Source of the DNA: Candidatus Aquidulcis sp.
GTDB lineage: Bacteria > Chloroflexota > Anaerolineae > UBA4142
DNA: 64,000 bases
Assembly (NCBI GenBank): GCA_020723345.1
Contig: DYJA01000001.1
Location: 117,602-181,601 of the forward strand
Direction: 5' to 3'
In this document: positions 1 through 5,266 of the stretch, in pieces
Layout: each line of letters starts with the position of its first letter
Position numbering within the stretch: position 1 is the stretch's first letter
The notes under the pieces: generated by a model
The model's database searches: none
Seen by the model: the letters and a program-made list of their open reading frames with translations, nothing else
What the model was told of the DNA's origin: nothing
Program-made: the position numbers and the translations under genes

Positions 1-404
1 ATAATCTGAGCACGATGATGCATATTATGAGTGACTACATGCCCAATTGCACCACCAAAGGTTTTTTTCACAGGCGGGTTGTCAAGAGTATCAATGAAAC
101 AATCATCATAACGTTTTTCTCGCGCAATATTATGCGCTAAATTGGCAAAATCTCGACTAACGATGCTCAAACGTTCAAGTAATTCTGAAATCGTGTTTCC
201 AGTTTTGTCCTGAACGGCTCGCTCATAAAGTAAATCTGTCCAAACTTCCATGTTTTCGATAACATGGATGAAAGTTTCGCGAAGCGACTTGTGGTCAATA
301 TCAAATTCCTTATCTAGCAAATCATCAGGTAATGACTGGCACGCTAAAAGAAGTTGGCGAGTTGTCCAAGTATCGTGACCAAGCAATCTATCAAGAATAT
401 CCAT
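1..404 (-). CDS. DinB-like protein, 3' end cut off by the window edge
   Basis: Reading the minus strand from an ATG at 404 gives an open frame to the window edge (134 codons, C-terminus missing). It starts MDILDRLLGHDTWTTRQLL and contains FIHVIENMEVW and, near the cut, GHVVTHNMHHRAQI. A first His in a helix about 45 residues in, and a later H-x3-HHRAQ cluster, are the metal-ligand pattern of the DinB/YfiT four-helix bundle. These proteins include thiol-dependent transferases; the substrate here is unknown. The minus-strand leader has GGAG about 8 bases before the ATG. The gene is AT-richer than the housekeeping block to the right and lies directly beyond an attC-like repeat, as a cassette gene would. 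Confidence 0.75.
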   Translation of the reverse strand, partial: MDILDRLLGHDTWTTRQLLLACQSLPDDLLDKEFDIDHKSLRETFIHVIENMEVWTDLLYERAVQDKTGNTISELLERLSIVSRDFANLAHNIAREKRYDDCFIDTLDNPPVKKTFGGAIGHVVTHNMHHRAQI

Positions 405-445: not shown

Positions 446-580
446 AGCGCCCAACGGCTTGCGCTACCCGCGTGTGGGCGGGCGTGGACAATGTTTGGGA
501 GCAGGAAAAACTCGAAGCCAGAAAAATGCTTGTAAATCGCGCAGAATCCCACACGTCAGGTGCACGCTTTGTTGGGCGCT
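446..580. repeat. attC-like inverted repeat (possible integron cassette site)
   Basis: The outer arms AGCGCCCAAC (446-455) and GTTGGGCGCT (571-580) are perfectly complementary. They contain GCCCAAC (449-455) and GTTGGGC (571-577), which match the integron core motifs RYYYAAC and GTTRRRY. A second perfect 8-bp pair, CGTGTGGG (471-478) with CCCACACG (548-555), lies inside, separated from the outer stem by a partly complementary stretch. This is the two-box folded layout of attC sites. The total of 135 bp is within the attC range. It sits just after the stop codon of the ATPase gene on the minus strand and before the DinB-like gene, the position expected for a cassette-associated attC. An unrelated palindromic repeat is the alternative. 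Confidence 0.5.
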
Positions 581-597
581 TTTATAAGACTTCACCT

Positions 598-1887
598 CTA
601 TTTTATTAAACTCTTAGCATATGCTTCAACTAACGTGGATGCACCTTTTTCTAGCCAATTACCAGCAATTTTTGCTGCTTGGCTAACTTGCCTAAGGTCG
701 CTACGTGAGACTGCTCCATGTATATATTGACGGTCTAGAATCCAATTTTCAAATGTAATATCATCTCTTACGATACGAACAATTTCATCTGCCAACCACC
801 AAAGCATGGCTTTTTGAGCCAATCTATAGCCGCTAGATGTTGAGTCATCTTCTTCAATTATTCCAGTCCGTAACAGATATCCAGTTTCTGGAGAAAGCCA
901 TACCAAATCTCTGCGAAAATCAAAAGTCTGCTTGCTGTTATCTTGTAGTGTTAATGGCGTTTGACTCAATCCTATTATTGCGATTGCTTTACGTATAGCG
1001 CCAGACCAACTTTCCCATAAATCCGAATAAAACAACTTGCTGCTTTCCCTAACTTTTTCTCCAACTGCTAAATGACGCTTAAAACGGTCTGTATTGTTTT
1101 GAAAAAACTCTTCCCACATAGCCGATGCAGATACTTGAACTAGATAAGGATGTCCTCCAGAAACATCATAAATATATTGGCAGTCTGTTGGAGAAAAATT
1201 ATTACTGAGAAGTATTTTTACATCATCGAAAGGAAGAGTTGACAATCGAATCTGGTGATACAAATTGAAAAATGGAGAGCCTGCTAATTCGACTTTTCCA
1301 GTACGGTTTTGGATTGCGTCAAGAGGATGGCGACTTGATATAAGAACTGCAAGGGTCCGAGGTGTATCGGAAAAAGAACGTAAACTCCACCAAAAATCAA
1401 AATCGTTCAATGCGTGTGAAAGAAGAATTTCGAACTCATCAAAAACAAGAATTAACCGTTTTTCTAGTTCTCCTAAGTTATAAATAAACTTGGATAAATA
1501 AAGAGATTCAAAGTTTTTTTCTTTAGATGTGTTATATGACTTGCTTAATTGAGAATCAGGATTCTTTTCTATCTCAGGCAGTATTGGAGATAGCGCATAC
1601 TCCCAGAATTCTGCTTGGGTAATCTTGCTGGGTAAAAGTTGACAATCTATGCGACTAAAAATTAGTTTTTCGCTGTTGTCTCCAAACAATGATTTACGAT
1701 TCTCTGGAGCCAGTAAATAATCAATCGTACTTGTCTTTGCAAGTCGTGGCTCACCAATCAATGCCACAGATACTCCATTACCCAGCCTTTCAGCCACAGA
1801 TAGGATTATTTGCCTTCGACTTGGAAGGTCGTTTAGGTTTACTGGAAAGCCATAAAGAAATGGGTTGCTCTTATTTTGATTATTCAT
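598..1887 (-). CDS. AAA/STAND-like P-loop ATPase
   Basis: The 429-residue protein has a Walker A-like loop ALIGEPRLAKTS at residues 42-53 and a Walker B LILVFDEFEILL at about 145-156. In Walker A the usual second glycine is Ala (GEPRLAKT instead of GxxxxGKT). The later segments DVSGGHPYLVQ and GYLLRTGIIEED followed by GYRLAQKAMLWW resemble the sensor and winged-helix parts of STAND/AAA_14-type ATPases. The last 60 residues are helical with no recognised domain. I prefer the ATG at 1887; a GTG at 1896 is in frame. It is AT-rich compared with rlmB and flanked by attC-like and hairpin elements, suggesting acquisition. A sensing or conflict role is inferred; no effector domain is visible. Confidence 0.7.
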   Translation of the reverse strand: MNNQNKSNPFLYGFPVNLNDLPSRRQIILSVAERLGNGVSVALIGEPRLAKTSTIDYLLAPENRKSLFGDNSEKLIFSRIDCQLLPSKITQAEFWEYALSPILPEIEKNPDSQLSKSYNTSKEKNFESLYLSKFIYNLGELEKRLILVFDEFEILLSHALNDFDFWWSLRSFSDTPRTLAVLISSRHPLDAIQNRTGKVELAGSPFFNLYHQIRLSTLPFDDVKILLSNNFSPTDCQYIYDVSGGHPYLVQVSASAMWEEFFQNNTDRFKRHLAVGEKVRESSKLFYSDLWESWSGAIRKAIAIIGLSQTPLTLQDNSKQTFDFRRDLVWLSPETGYLLRTGIIEEDDSTSSGYRLAQKAMLWWLADEIVRIVRDDITFENWILDRQYIHGAVSRSDLRQVSQAAKIAGNWLEKGASTLVEAYAKSLIK

Positions 1888-1934
1888 GAGTATCACTTAT
1901 CTGAAAATTCATTTTTGACGATTCTATTACGTTA

Positions 1935-1985
1935 GCACCCAACTACATCTTATGCGGAATCGTTTCCGCATAACAGACTAGGTGC
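1935..1985. repeat. Hairpin with partial attC-like ends at the cassette/chromosome boundary
   Basis: TTATGCGGAA (1950-1959) and TTCCGCATAA (1964-1973) form a perfect 10-bp stem with a 4-base loop. GCACC (1935-1939) pairs further out with GGTGC (1981-1985). On the minus strand the left end reads GTTGGGT, a perfect GTTRRRY core. The opposite end reads ACCTAGT, a poor RYYYAAC. It may be a degenerate attC or att site bounding the ATPase cassette, or a terminator for rlmB. Confidence 0.35.
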
Positions 1986-2048
1986 AGATTATACATCTCC
2001 GTTCTTGAAAGGACAACTCCCGCTCCTTGTATGAACAGCCAAGCCCAA

Positions 2049-2789
2049 TTACGACAGGGATGCCCGTTGCCTCTTCGCCGCGTACAACACGATCGAGCCC
2101 GCGATCGCGACGTTGAGCGAACTCACCTTCCCCCACATCGGCAAGCGAATCAGGAAATCGCATTTCTCGCGGACAAGTCGTCCCAGTCCTTCGCCTTCGC
2201 TGCCCAGCACGAGCGCGAGCGGCATCTTGAAATCCATCCGCGAAAAATCTTGCGCCTCGGGCACGTTCTCCACGCCGACGATCCAAATATTCGCGCGCTT
2301 CAACTCTTCGATTGTCCGCGCCAGGTTCGTCACACGCGCGATTTTCAAATGGTGCGCCGCGCCCGCCGATGCTTTGACGACTGCTGGGGTTACGCCGACC
2401 GCGCGCCGTTCCGCGATGATGACGCCGTGGATGCCGACGGCTTCGGCTGTTCGCAGCAGCGTACCGAAATTCTGCGGGTCTTGCACCGAGTCGAGCATCA
2501 ACAGAAATGCTGGCTCGTCGCGCGACTGCGCGACTGCCAGCACCTCTTCGATTTCCGCGTACACGTATTCGCCAATGCGCGCGACGATGCCTTGATGATT
2601 GCGCGCGATGCGATCCAATTCATCGCGCGCGACGCCGCGCACCGGCACGTTCGCGCTTTTCGCGAGCGATAGCAATTCGTCCAACGCGCCGCGCGTGTGA
2701 ACGCCGCGCGCGATCAAGATTTGTTCGATGGCGTTGCCGGCGCGGAGCGCTTCCAGAACCGCGTGACGACCGTAGAGATAGTCGGACAT
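2049..2789 (-). CDS. rlmB: 23S rRNA (guanosine-2'-O-)-methyltransferase RlmB
   Basis: The product begins MSDYLYGRHAVLEALRAG, like the SpoU substrate-binding domain of RlmB. It carries the SpoU/TrmH knot motifs: LDSVQDPQNFGTLLRTAEA (motif 1), ALVLGSEGEGL (motif 2) and IRLPMWGKVSSLNVAIAGSI (motif 3). RlmB 2'-O-methylates a conserved G in the peptidyl-transferase region of 23S rRNA; the exact position here is assumed from the family. I chose the ATG at 2789, one base beyond the cysS stop. A longer form from 2825 (MARKERRG...) would overlap cysS by 35 bases. It is in an apparent operon with cysS, a common pairing. Confidence 0.9.
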   Translation of the reverse strand: MSDYLYGRHAVLEALRAGNAIEQILIARGVHTRGALDELLSLAKSANVPVRGVARDELDRIARNHQGIVARIGEYVYAEIEEVLAVAQSRDEPAFLLMLDSVQDPQNFGTLLRTAEAVGIHGVIIAERRAVGVTPAVVKASAGAAHHLKIARVTNLARTIEELKRANIWIVGVENVPEAQDFSRMDFKMPLALVLGSEGEGLGRLVREKCDFLIRLPMWGKVSSLNVAIAGSIVLYAAKRQRASLS

Positions 2790-2790
2790 T

Positions 2791-4209
2791 TTACTGCGAC
2801 TTCCACGTCGTTCCTTGCGCGCCATCTTCCAGCGCGACGCCGAGTTTTGCGAGATCGGCGCGCACCTTGTCCGCGAGCGCGAATTGCTTTGCCGCGCGCA
2901 ACTCTTTGCGGATCGCGATCAGCAACTCGATGAACGGCGCGGCTTGCAGCATTTTCGATTTCGGTTCTTCGAGCGTCAGACCCAGCACGCCGGCAAGTTC
3001 GCGCAGCGTCGCTTGCGCGGGTGCGAGCGTTTCCGCAGTCGCGTTCTCATTCCGCGCGCGATTGATCTCGCGCGCCAGATCGTACAGCGCGGCAATCGCT
3101 TGCGGCGTACCGAAATCGTCGTCCATCGCGGCGATGAATTTTTCGCGCGTTTGATTCGCAAATTGCGTCAGCGCGCTCTCCCCTCCCCTGCTTGCGGGGG
3201 AGGGGCTGGGGGTGGGGGTTGCCACCGCCGCGCGCAATCGCTCCAGCCCACGCGCTGCCGCGTCCACATCGTCGTCCGTCCACGCGAGCGGCGTGCGATA
3301 GTGCGTCGAGAGCAAGTAAAGCCGAATCTCGTCGGCAGTGTGACGCGCGAGCGCGTCTTTGATCCACAACGTGTTGCCGACGTGCCGCGACATTTTGTCT
3401 TCGGCAGAAGAGTCACCGCTCAAACGCAGGAGCGCGTTGTGCATCCAATATTTCGCGAACGGCTTTTTGCCGGTGAACGATTCACTCTGCGCGATTTCAT
3501 TTTCGTGATGGGGAAAGATCACATCGTGTCCGCCGCCGTGAATGTCGATCTGCGGACCGTGTTCCACATAATTCATCGCCGAGCATTCGATATGCCAGCC
3601 GGGCCGTCCTTTGCCCCAAGGACTGTCCCACGCCGGTTCGCCGGGCTTGGACGCTTTCCACAGCGCGAAATCCATCGGGTCTTCTTTGCGCTCGTCGACT
3701 TGAATGCGCGCCCCGGCTTCCATCTCGTCGAGCGAGCGGTGCGCGAGTTTGCCATAGCCATCGGCTTTGCGGACGCGAAAGTACACGTCGCCATCCACTT
3801 CGTACGCGAATCCTTTGGCGATCAATCCTTGCGTGATTTCGATGATCGTCGGAATGACGCCGGTCGCGCGCGGGTACGCGTCGGCGCGCTGGATGTTGAG
3901 CGCGTCCATTTCGTCCATAAAGCGCGCGATGTACACTTGCGCGATTTCCTGGATCGTTTTGTTTTCGGCTTGCGCTTTCGCGATGATGCGATCTTCGATG
4001 TCGGTAAAGTTCTGGACGTGTCGCATCGTGTAGCCGCGATATTTGAAATAGCGTTTGACCACGTCGAAGACGATGTACGAGAACGCGTGCCCGACGTGGC
4101 ACGGATCGTAGAGGTTGGGTCCGCAGACGTACAGCGCGACGTGACCGGGTTTGTTCGGAACGAATTCTTCGGTTTGACGCGTGAGCGTGCTATGGATTTT
4201 GAGAGCCAT
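2791..4209 (-). CDS. cysS: Cysteinyl-tRNA synthetase with a repeat-derived insert
   Basis: This class I synthetase charges tRNA-Cys. Visible signatures are CGPNLYDPCHVGHA (zinc ligand C29, HIGH-like HVGH at 38-41), the zinc-site cysteine in HIECSAM (C209), GGGHDVIFPHHENEIAQSE, and the KMSKS equivalent at 272. That last motif reads KMSRHVGN, so the usual Lys-Ser after KMS is Arg-His. Residues 331-345 (TPTPSPSPASRGGES) are a low-complexity insert encoded by a GC-rich palindromic repeat, placed between the catalytic domain and the C-terminal helical part. Length (472) is normal. GGAG lies upstream of the ATG. rlmB follows immediately. Confidence 0.95.
   Translation of the reverse strand: MALKIHSTLTRQTEEFVPNKPGHVALYVCGPNLYDPCHVGHAFSYIVFDVVKRYFKYRGYTMRHVQNFTDIEDRIIAKAQAENKTIQEIAQVYIARFMDEMDALNIQRADAYPRATGVIPTIIEITQGLIAKGFAYEVDGDVYFRVRKADGYGKLAHRSLDEMEAGARIQVDERKEDPMDFALWKASKPGEPAWDSPWGKGRPGWHIECSAMNYVEHGPQIDIHGGGHDVIFPHHENEIAQSESFTGKKPFAKYWMHNALLRLSGDSSAEDKMSRHVGNTLWIKDALARHTADEIRLYLLSTHYRTPLAWTDDDVDAAARGLERLRAAVATPTPSPSPASRGGESALTQFANQTREKFIAAMDDDFGTPQAIAALYDLAREINRARNENATAETLAPAQATLRELAGVLGLTLEEPKSKMLQAAPFIELLIAIRKELRAAKQFALADKVRADLAKLGVALEDGAQGTTWKSQ
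3177..3220. repeat. GC-rich palindromic repeat inserted in frame in cysS
   Basis: CCCTCCCCTG followed by CGGGGGAGGGG and then CTGGGGGTGGGGG. The complement closely matches 22199-22241 inside another gene. It is translated in the same reading frame in both places (TPTPSPSP here, TPTLTLPR there). Confidence 0.8.
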
Positions 4210-4395: not shown

Positions 4396-4830
4396 TCATC
4401 TTCCTTGCTCAACCTCTATGAATTGCCGATATACCTGCGCGAGTTCCACCAAATCGTCAAGATGATCTTGCAGCACTTGGAAAACCTGAAAATGATCTAT
4501 TTCGGCGTACTCGTGAACCAGCAAATTCCGAAAGCCCGCCATTCCGTGGACGCGCCGCAGCAACTCTTTGGAAATTACGCCGTGCTGTTCCAGCGTCGTA
4601 AAGATACTCGCGTACTCTTCGGCGGGTTGCCAACCTGAACTGGCGATGATGTGCTGGCCAATATCGAGAACGGACTCTACCGCCAAATGCAAATTGCGTT
4701 CTACAATATCTTGCGTATCGCTATCTTCAAGGAACAATTCCACTGTGATGCGAGCGCGGATGGCGCGCAGTTTCTTGAGATAACCCTCTAATATGCGAAG
4801 GCGCCTTTGGACGACCTCAGGGCTGACCAA
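4396..4830 (-). CDS. hepT: HepT-like HEPN ribonuclease toxin
   Basis: The 144-residue all-helical protein carries the HEPN signature RNLLVHEY, the Rx4-6HxY motif with R101, H106 and Y108, typical of DUF86/HepT. Known HepT proteins are RNases neutralised when MntA transfers AMP onto the HEPN tyrosine. The start overlaps the end of the mntA-like gene by 14 bases, so the two are co-transcribed with the nucleotidyltransferase first, the usual arrangement. It is inserted between cysS and the PIN/TRAM gene with no mobility gene. Confidence 0.85.
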   Translation of the reverse strand: MVSPEVVQRRLRILEGYLKKLRAIRARITVELFLEDSDTQDIVERNLHLAVESVLDIGQHIIASSGWQPAEEYASIFTTLEQHGVISKELLRRVHGMAGFRNLLVHEYAEIDHFQVFQVLQDHLDDLVELAQVYRQFIEVEQGR

Positions 4831-5266
4831 AGGTACCCTCCTTCAGGCGCTGCCGCATATACGCATAATCAATCGCGTAAAACGATTTGAGATCGAGATA
4901 CCTTCGCTGAACGTCCACCGTGTAACGCACGCGCGCCTCAGGCGAACGCTCGAACAAGACGTGTCCCTTGATCGCTTCGTGCGCCAATAGGGGCGGCGCG
5001 GTATTCAGAATCACGACATCCACGCGATCATCGTGGAGGGCTTGCATTGCCGCCGTCGCGTAGTGGAGGCGATAATCCAGGTATTTCTCAGGGGGGATTT
5101 CGGATGAAAGCAGCAAGGCAAGATCAACGTCGCTCAACGTGTTCGCGCGATTCTGCGCGTACGACCCAAACAGAAACGCGAGGACGATCCCCGGATCTGC
5201 CGCAAACATTGGCGCGAGTTGTTCTATTCGATTGATTTCGATCTTTCCTGTTTGCTCACGCATCAC
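4817..5266 (-). CDS. mntA: MntA-like minimal nucleotidyltransferase antitoxin
   Basis: The 149-residue protein has the complete GSx10DxD motif of minimal nucleotidyltransferases: G34-S35, then D46-V-D48 (GSYAQNRANTLSDVDLALL). In characterised MntA proteins this catalyses AMPylation of HepT. A third acidic position is probably the Asp in DDRVDVVILN. It is upstream of and overlaps hepT. The second Met (MM...) is an equally good start. Other family 2 nucleotidyltransferases look similar, but the HEPN partner makes the pair clear. Confidence 0.85.
   Translation of the reverse strand: MMREQTGKIEINRIEQLAPMFAADPGIVLAFLFGSYAQNRANTLSDVDLALLLSSEIPPEKYLDYRLHYATAAMQALHDDRVDVVILNTAPPLLAHEAIKGHVLFERSPEARVRYTVDVQRRYLDLKSFYAIDYAYMRQRLKEGTFGQP

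Follow-up and report, generated by a model that had tools for sequence, protein, structure and literature searches.

Two integron cassettes next to an attI-type sequence at an integrase-less chromosomal locus of Candidatus Aquidulcis sp.

The cassette array and its attC sites

The window, i.e. the whole stretch of DNA analysed, covers 64,000 nucleotides of a contig (C66) of Candidatus Aquidulcis sp. (genome G000). At its left end, the minus strand displayed from right to left an RlmB-type gene, a promoter-like box, a dyad, a core site, a STAND ATPase gene, an attC site, a DinB-superfamily gene, a second attC site and a glycosyltransferase gene. The features are given below in window positions, or in L009 coordinates where they lie to the left of the window.

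L009:14581-13589, minus strand: glycosyltransferase gene, left border, beyond the second attC
1..404, minus strand: cassette 2 gene, DinB superfamily (PF05163, E 2.4e-14), 5' part; continues left of the window to L009:14916
454 to about -273 (L009:14727), minus strand: extent of cassette 2, 728 bp, ending in the attC at L009:14721-14849, outside the window
449..577, minus strand: attC of the ATPase cassette, 129 nt; R'' GCCCAAC at 577-571, R' GTTGGGC at 455-449, inner stem GTGTGGG/CCCACAC
455..1942, minus strand: cassette 1 (1488 bp) as delimited by the G^TT rule, core sites read directly
598..1896, minus strand: cassette 1 gene, STAND-type ATPase (nSTAND2, PF20702, E 3.5e-11), 432 aa from GTG 1896
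1937..1943, minus strand: attI core GTTGGGT, marking where cassette 1 is inserted; the C42 and C25 platforms have it at the same place and in the same context (TAGTTGGG)
1937-1994, minus strand: attI-type sequence shortened to one dyad (alignment; blastn E 8e-10 to C25 and 1.4e-6 to C42)
1950..1973, no strand assigned: 24-bp dyad TTATGCGGAA-N4-TTCCGCATAA, characteristic of the attI region; its only occurrences in 6.3 Mb are at C25, C42 and C66
1988..2016, minus strand: putative cassette promoter Pc, TTGTCC-17-TATAAT (consensus scan), reading into the cassettes
2049..2825, minus strand: RlmB-type 23S rRNA methyltransferase gene, right border, stop at 2049; orthologues lie beside an integron or the glycosyltransferase gene in relatives

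Both cassette genes were read from the attI side. For the ATPase gene, an ATG at 1887 is also a possible start; the gene is not assigned to a defence system, since a PADLOC search with the ATPase returned no match. The second gene (L009:15404-14916) is "DinB" in the sense of superfamily PF05163, not of DNA polymerase IV. The initial annotation had placed an attC-like element at 446-580, directly after a minus-strand ATPase gene and before a DinB-like gene; both domain matches agreed with this placement, and the element itself was the same apart from 3 extra bases per side, its exact limits being 449-577. The contrast in composition between these two genes and the chromosome on their right, also pointed out there, was borne out: their G+C contents were 38% (ATPase) and 40% (DinB superfamily) versus 57.5% for the remaining window, where no 1.3-kb tile fell below 47.6%.

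The RYYYAAC/GTTRRRY ends and paired boxes reported earlier were likewise recovered. Read on the minus strand from 577 to 449, the element is GCCCAAC-AAAGCGTGCACCTGACGTGTGGG-(loop)-CCCACACGCGGGTAGCGCAAGCC-GTTGGGC, i.e. an imperfect palindrome opened by R'' and closed by R', with consensus stems of 7 and 17 pairs. Over 18 kb of the contig, a box-and-stem scan at threshold 11 retrieved 2 elements, against 0 in mononucleotide shuffles. Single-strand folding energies were only mildly unusual (z -1.3 and -2.3), which is too weak to prove an attC, and identity was therefore not rested on them. Covariance models were built from the attC sites of relatives rather than taken from IntegronFinder, and one of them (CM R2, leave-own-genome-out) was free of any sequence from the Candidatus Aquidulcis genome. 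The window attC scored 144.6 bits with CM R1 and 136.1 bits with CM R2 (E about 1e-38), so that the possibility of a mere background score with no further site to the left, by which the first reading could have fallen, did not materialize: a second attC was present on that side. On the stated structure, 41 alignment cells had changed on both sides of a pair, compared with 13.4 +/- 3.7 in shuffles (0/500 as high), and 89.9% of cells were paired versus 24-39% with slid partners. Among the 25 aligned sites, inner stems displayed compensatory changes (GTGTGGG/CCCACAC, GGGTGGG/CCCACCC, GCTGGGG/CCCCAGC and TGGTGGG/CCCACCA) and CGTT at the recombination point was invariant. The bases after it varied at several sites (GTTCGAG, GTTCGTC, GTTGAAA), as expected if they belong to the neighbouring unit. 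An Rfam scan of the whole window gave no match. Judged from its sequence, the element at 449-577 is a genuine attC site, the leave-own-genome-out model and the covariation being the decisive tests, and it is predicted to recombine as a bottom strand folded and recognized by IntI.

The second attC (L009:14721-14849, C66:117322-117450) lies 728 bp to the left of the first, a little beyond the edge of the window. It was 93% identical to the first and scored 135.7 bits with CM R2 (E 1e-38 being given for both copies). The DinB cassette consists of one gene followed by an attC of the same orientation, with G^TTRRRY cores at its bounds. The R'' of its attC (GCCCAAC) exactly complements the GTTGGGC core at the cassette's own 5' end, and its R' reads GTTAGGC; this departure from the 5' core is what one would predict if its final bases are part of the following unit.

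Two tandem attC sites with no integron integrase found nearby constitute by definition a CALIN, in support of the integrase-less attC cluster originally suspected. The absence of an integrase from the window was confirmed by tblastn, two IntI queries yielding nothing significant over the window and L009. As to the continuation of the cluster to the left, a further attC was indeed found there, but the array ends with it, against an ordinary glycosyltransferase gene. A search for an intI gene had also been recommended; none was detected beside the window attC, and an intact one was located elsewhere, on contig C42. The initial annotation missed the attI-type and promoter-like sequence retained to the right (1937-2016), the C42 integrase of the same genome, and the chromosomal locus shared with relatives, which points to the source of this CALIN.

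The attI-type sequence and other integron loci of the genome

The intI gene on C42 (329 aa, full length, no stops) scored 449 bits with TIGR02249, whose cut-off is 265, and was the only integrase of the genome above that cut-off among those listed. It diverges from an attI and a first cassette in the classical layout, with an attC at L017:13031-13154. Directly after this attC of the complete integron lies an ANT(6)-type aminoglycoside adenylyltransferase-like gene (L017:13340-14209; PF04439, 393 bits), after which no attC was found.

Positions 1938-1994 of the window partly matched the C42 interval between intI and the first cassette, as well as a similar place on C25. This homologous sequence ends in a GTTRRRY core exactly where the first cassette begins. 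An attI-type sequence is retained at the window locus; an adjacent intI is absent. C66, C42 and C25 displayed a common order: a TATAAT box, one or two 24-bp dyads, then TAGTTGGG(C/T). The counterparts of the promoter-like box at C42 and C25 read TTGCCT-16/17-TATAAT. The pattern TTATRCRGAA-N2-8-TTCYGYATAA occurred at five positions in 6.3 Mb, two on C25, two on C42 and one on C66, while a reversed control pattern had 0 occurrences in the same genome. These three loci are all integron loci, with an intact intI beside the dyads at C42 and without one at C25 and C66. A role of the dyad as a general host (SOS-type) operator was rejected, the pattern being found nowhere else in the genome. At C66, it looks as if two dyads had collapsed into one, and this attI, with one dyad lost, may be inactive. 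A looser dyad pattern was present in 8/14 genomes of the family (G000 included), in 0/6 of the neighbouring family and in 2/40 other genomes of the class, and an attC lay within about 1 kb at several of its places.

On C25 (L102), an attI, cassettes and three attC were found without intI. This second integrase-less platform (L102:6940-9230, G000:C25:51939-54229) comprises a promoter-like box, two dyads and a core, followed by cassette genes, namely a membrane-protein gene, a second gene and a RidA-like gene. Upstream of its attI, the intI strand reads ATGAATCAA, resembling the opening three codons of the C42 intI, before an RtcB-like gene. Both the C66 and the C25 platforms lie well inside long contigs, so that the missing intI is not a contig-end effect. 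An attI-like sequence was also observed on C80 (L186:3914-3980, G000:C80:26913-26979), between a LacI-family regulator gene, which it follows directly, and a methyltransferase-like gene; neither attC nor intI was detected beside it. By eye, the upstream gene was co-oriented with the intI-less platform in about 8/11 cases, a number too small to support a claim.

The locus in related genomes and distribution of the attC family

All results, comparisons across loci and relatives included, were obtained on draft genomes. In G013, of the same family, the locus (L091) carries a complete integron between the orthologous glycosyltransferase and RlmB genes: glycosyltransferase gene, array of at least seven attC, attI, gene for an intact 331-aa IntI and RlmB gene, in the same orientation. 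In G001, of the same genus, a 5'-truncated intI without start was found near RlmB, with two genes between them. On another contig of G001, an attC lies beside the glycosyltransferase gene, where homology with G000 stops; flank homology between the two genomes ends about 15 bp from the attC. The RlmB and glycosyltransferase genes are directly adjacent in G007 (83 bp apart) and G005 (55 bp apart).

In an IntI tree, the integrases at the locus in G001 and G013 and the C42 integrase formed no single supported clade. The tree gave no support to a single intI inherited vertically at this place, a scenario that was rejected; since the three integrases were not joined, whole integrons may have been replaced here, with more than one occupation of the locus. 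Although G013 carries its attI at the corresponding chromosomal position, the attI of C66 is closer in type to those of C42 and C25. In another relative, G008 (97% complete), attI-attC platforms were observed at two loci (L182, L183) and no gene exceeded the integron-integrase cut-off; there seem to be more platforms than integrases in its family.

BLAST with the 129 nt revealed the same attC family in 20/60 genomes searched (G000 included). Tandem copies were frequent, and in G013 and G014 members of the family immediately adjoin genes above the integron-integrase cut-off. A 34-nt piece of the window attC matched 90 stretches in a species-level genome collection, mostly from Anaerolineales and other Chloroflexota, a phylum in which integrons were previously reported (PMC8618304). 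The exact 34-nt pattern had no match in a viral contig collection, and a virus-borne attC was rejected on this ground. The family was also recorded on mostly short contigs (L207, L223, L240, L243, L247, L254, L255, L267 and L272) of MAGs named Kapaibacterium, Bacteroidetes/Bacteroidales, Chitinophagales, Brocadia, Methylococcales and Draconibacterium, which reflects either cassette transfer between phyla or mis-binned contigs. Several attC of relatives end in GTTCGAG, GTTCGTC or GTTGAAA instead of GTTRRRY (L047:1497-1625, L048:1497-1625, L103:3594-3723 and 4729-4858); such non-canonical ends suggest insertion at G^TT sites other than attI. In G046, a one-contig genome of the same class, several internal attC pieces (G046:C1:2740000-2818000; L100, L101), up to 95% identical over positions 33-108, occurred in two clusters of opposite strand.

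Origin of the locus and comparison with known systems

The left end of the window is very probably the integrase-less remnant of a sedentary chromosomal integron. The simplest reading of the complete integron in G013, the truncated intI in G001 and the adjacent genes in G007 and G005 is that the locus has long served as a chromosomal integron site and lost its integrase in the G000 lineage. That an intI was present at this locus in an ancestor and lost in situ appears likely from these comparisons. Among the three mechanisms proposed for CALINs, integrase loss is mechanism (ii) (PMC8618304).

The proposed functioning of the locus can be outlined as follows. IntI-family tyrosine recombinases join a folded bottom-strand attC with attI at G^TTRRRY. 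IntI would thus add cassettes at the attI end by working on attC in its folded bottom-strand form, and Pc, whose activity we infer, would read from attI into them. The remaining C42 IntI, which lies beside a closely similar attI, could still exchange cassettes at C66; the chances that it can act in trans on the C66 attI and these attC seem about even. Such action in trans on CALIN cassettes was previously put forward as possible (PMC9668308). A further step would be a distributed system of integrons in this Chloroflexota family, in which a single distant IntI serves, in trans, several promoter-bearing, integrase-less attI platforms scattered over the chromosome, filling them and shuffling their cassettes; the attI would be of a new type, made of two 24-bp dyads and found almost only next to integron parts. 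This broader proposal is tentative and rather doubtful at present.

The strongest competing explanation, to which we give somewhat less than an even chance, is that no integrase recombines attI and attC any longer, the genes being ordinary residents and the sites decaying. It overlaps the integron remnant on structure and differs only in the continued activity of the one-dyad attI. The loss of one of two dyads, the lack of an intI beside attI and the presence of only two cassettes, compared with an average of almost 6 attC per CALIN (PMC9024848), are in its favour, whereas both attC retain all boxes and the stem and are 93% identical to each other, both genes are open and far more AT-rich than the chromosome, and an intact IntI still exists in the genome. 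That intact enzyme could also have put two cassettes at a chance chromosomal site where no integron ever stood, and the GTTCGAG, GTTCGTC and GTTGAAA ends of relatives' attC would fit secondary G^TT insertion, a process that may well happen in the clade. Yet an off-target insertion would not bring an attI, whereas here the first cassette has an attI-type core, a dyad and a promoter-like box precisely at its 5' end. This counts against such an origin, as do the complete integron that G013 carries at this position and the truncated intI nearby in G001; we regard it as unlikely here. A REP- or MITE-type repeated hairpin that flanks a gene by chance, outside any integron, would account for an imperfect palindrome in several copies but has next to no probability left, given the few genomic copies (3 good BLAST matches), all tandem with small genes and in one orientation, the compensatory stem changes and invariant CGTT, and the occurrence of family members in intI-adjacent arrays of G013 and G014 and of a related site at the C42 integron, positions in complete integrons by which the hairpin reading is already contradicted.

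The origins proposed for CALINs (intI loss, off-target insertion, rearrangement) have rarely been traceable. An integron remnant in an Anaerolineales-like Chloroflexota genome with one integrase elsewhere is a good case for how orphan arrays form: across related genomes, a single locus can be compared when empty, when bearing an intact intI, when a truncated one lies close by and when it holds just attI and cassettes. This case also offers a recognisable attI outside the mobile classes, and one IntI with three attI loci is a natural set-up in which action in trans is directly testable. The attC family could moreover serve as a taxon marker for Anaerolineales cassettes.

As in the taxon-specific attC families described previously, attC sequence and fold are conserved within a taxon; those models cover 11 taxa (Vibrionales, Xanthomonadales and nine others), whereas the present family, mostly from Anaerolineales and other Chloroflexota, has no model among them (PMC8352920). 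With sedentary chromosomal integrons the locus shares a homogeneous attC family, a position common with the complete integron of a relative and the attI/cassette layout of G013, and it differs by its lack of intI and its only two cassettes. With CALINs it shares two tandem attC, which reach the two-attC threshold of IntegronFinder 2.0, co-oriented genes and no intI beside them; in contrast, it keeps an attI-type site and promoter-like sequence, which the CALIN definition does not consider (PMC9024848). IntegronFinder does not detect attI outside class 1, and such sites are poorly described (PMC9024848). The known kind is a CALIN, and what is distinctive here is the retained attI and the layout of one integrase and three loci.
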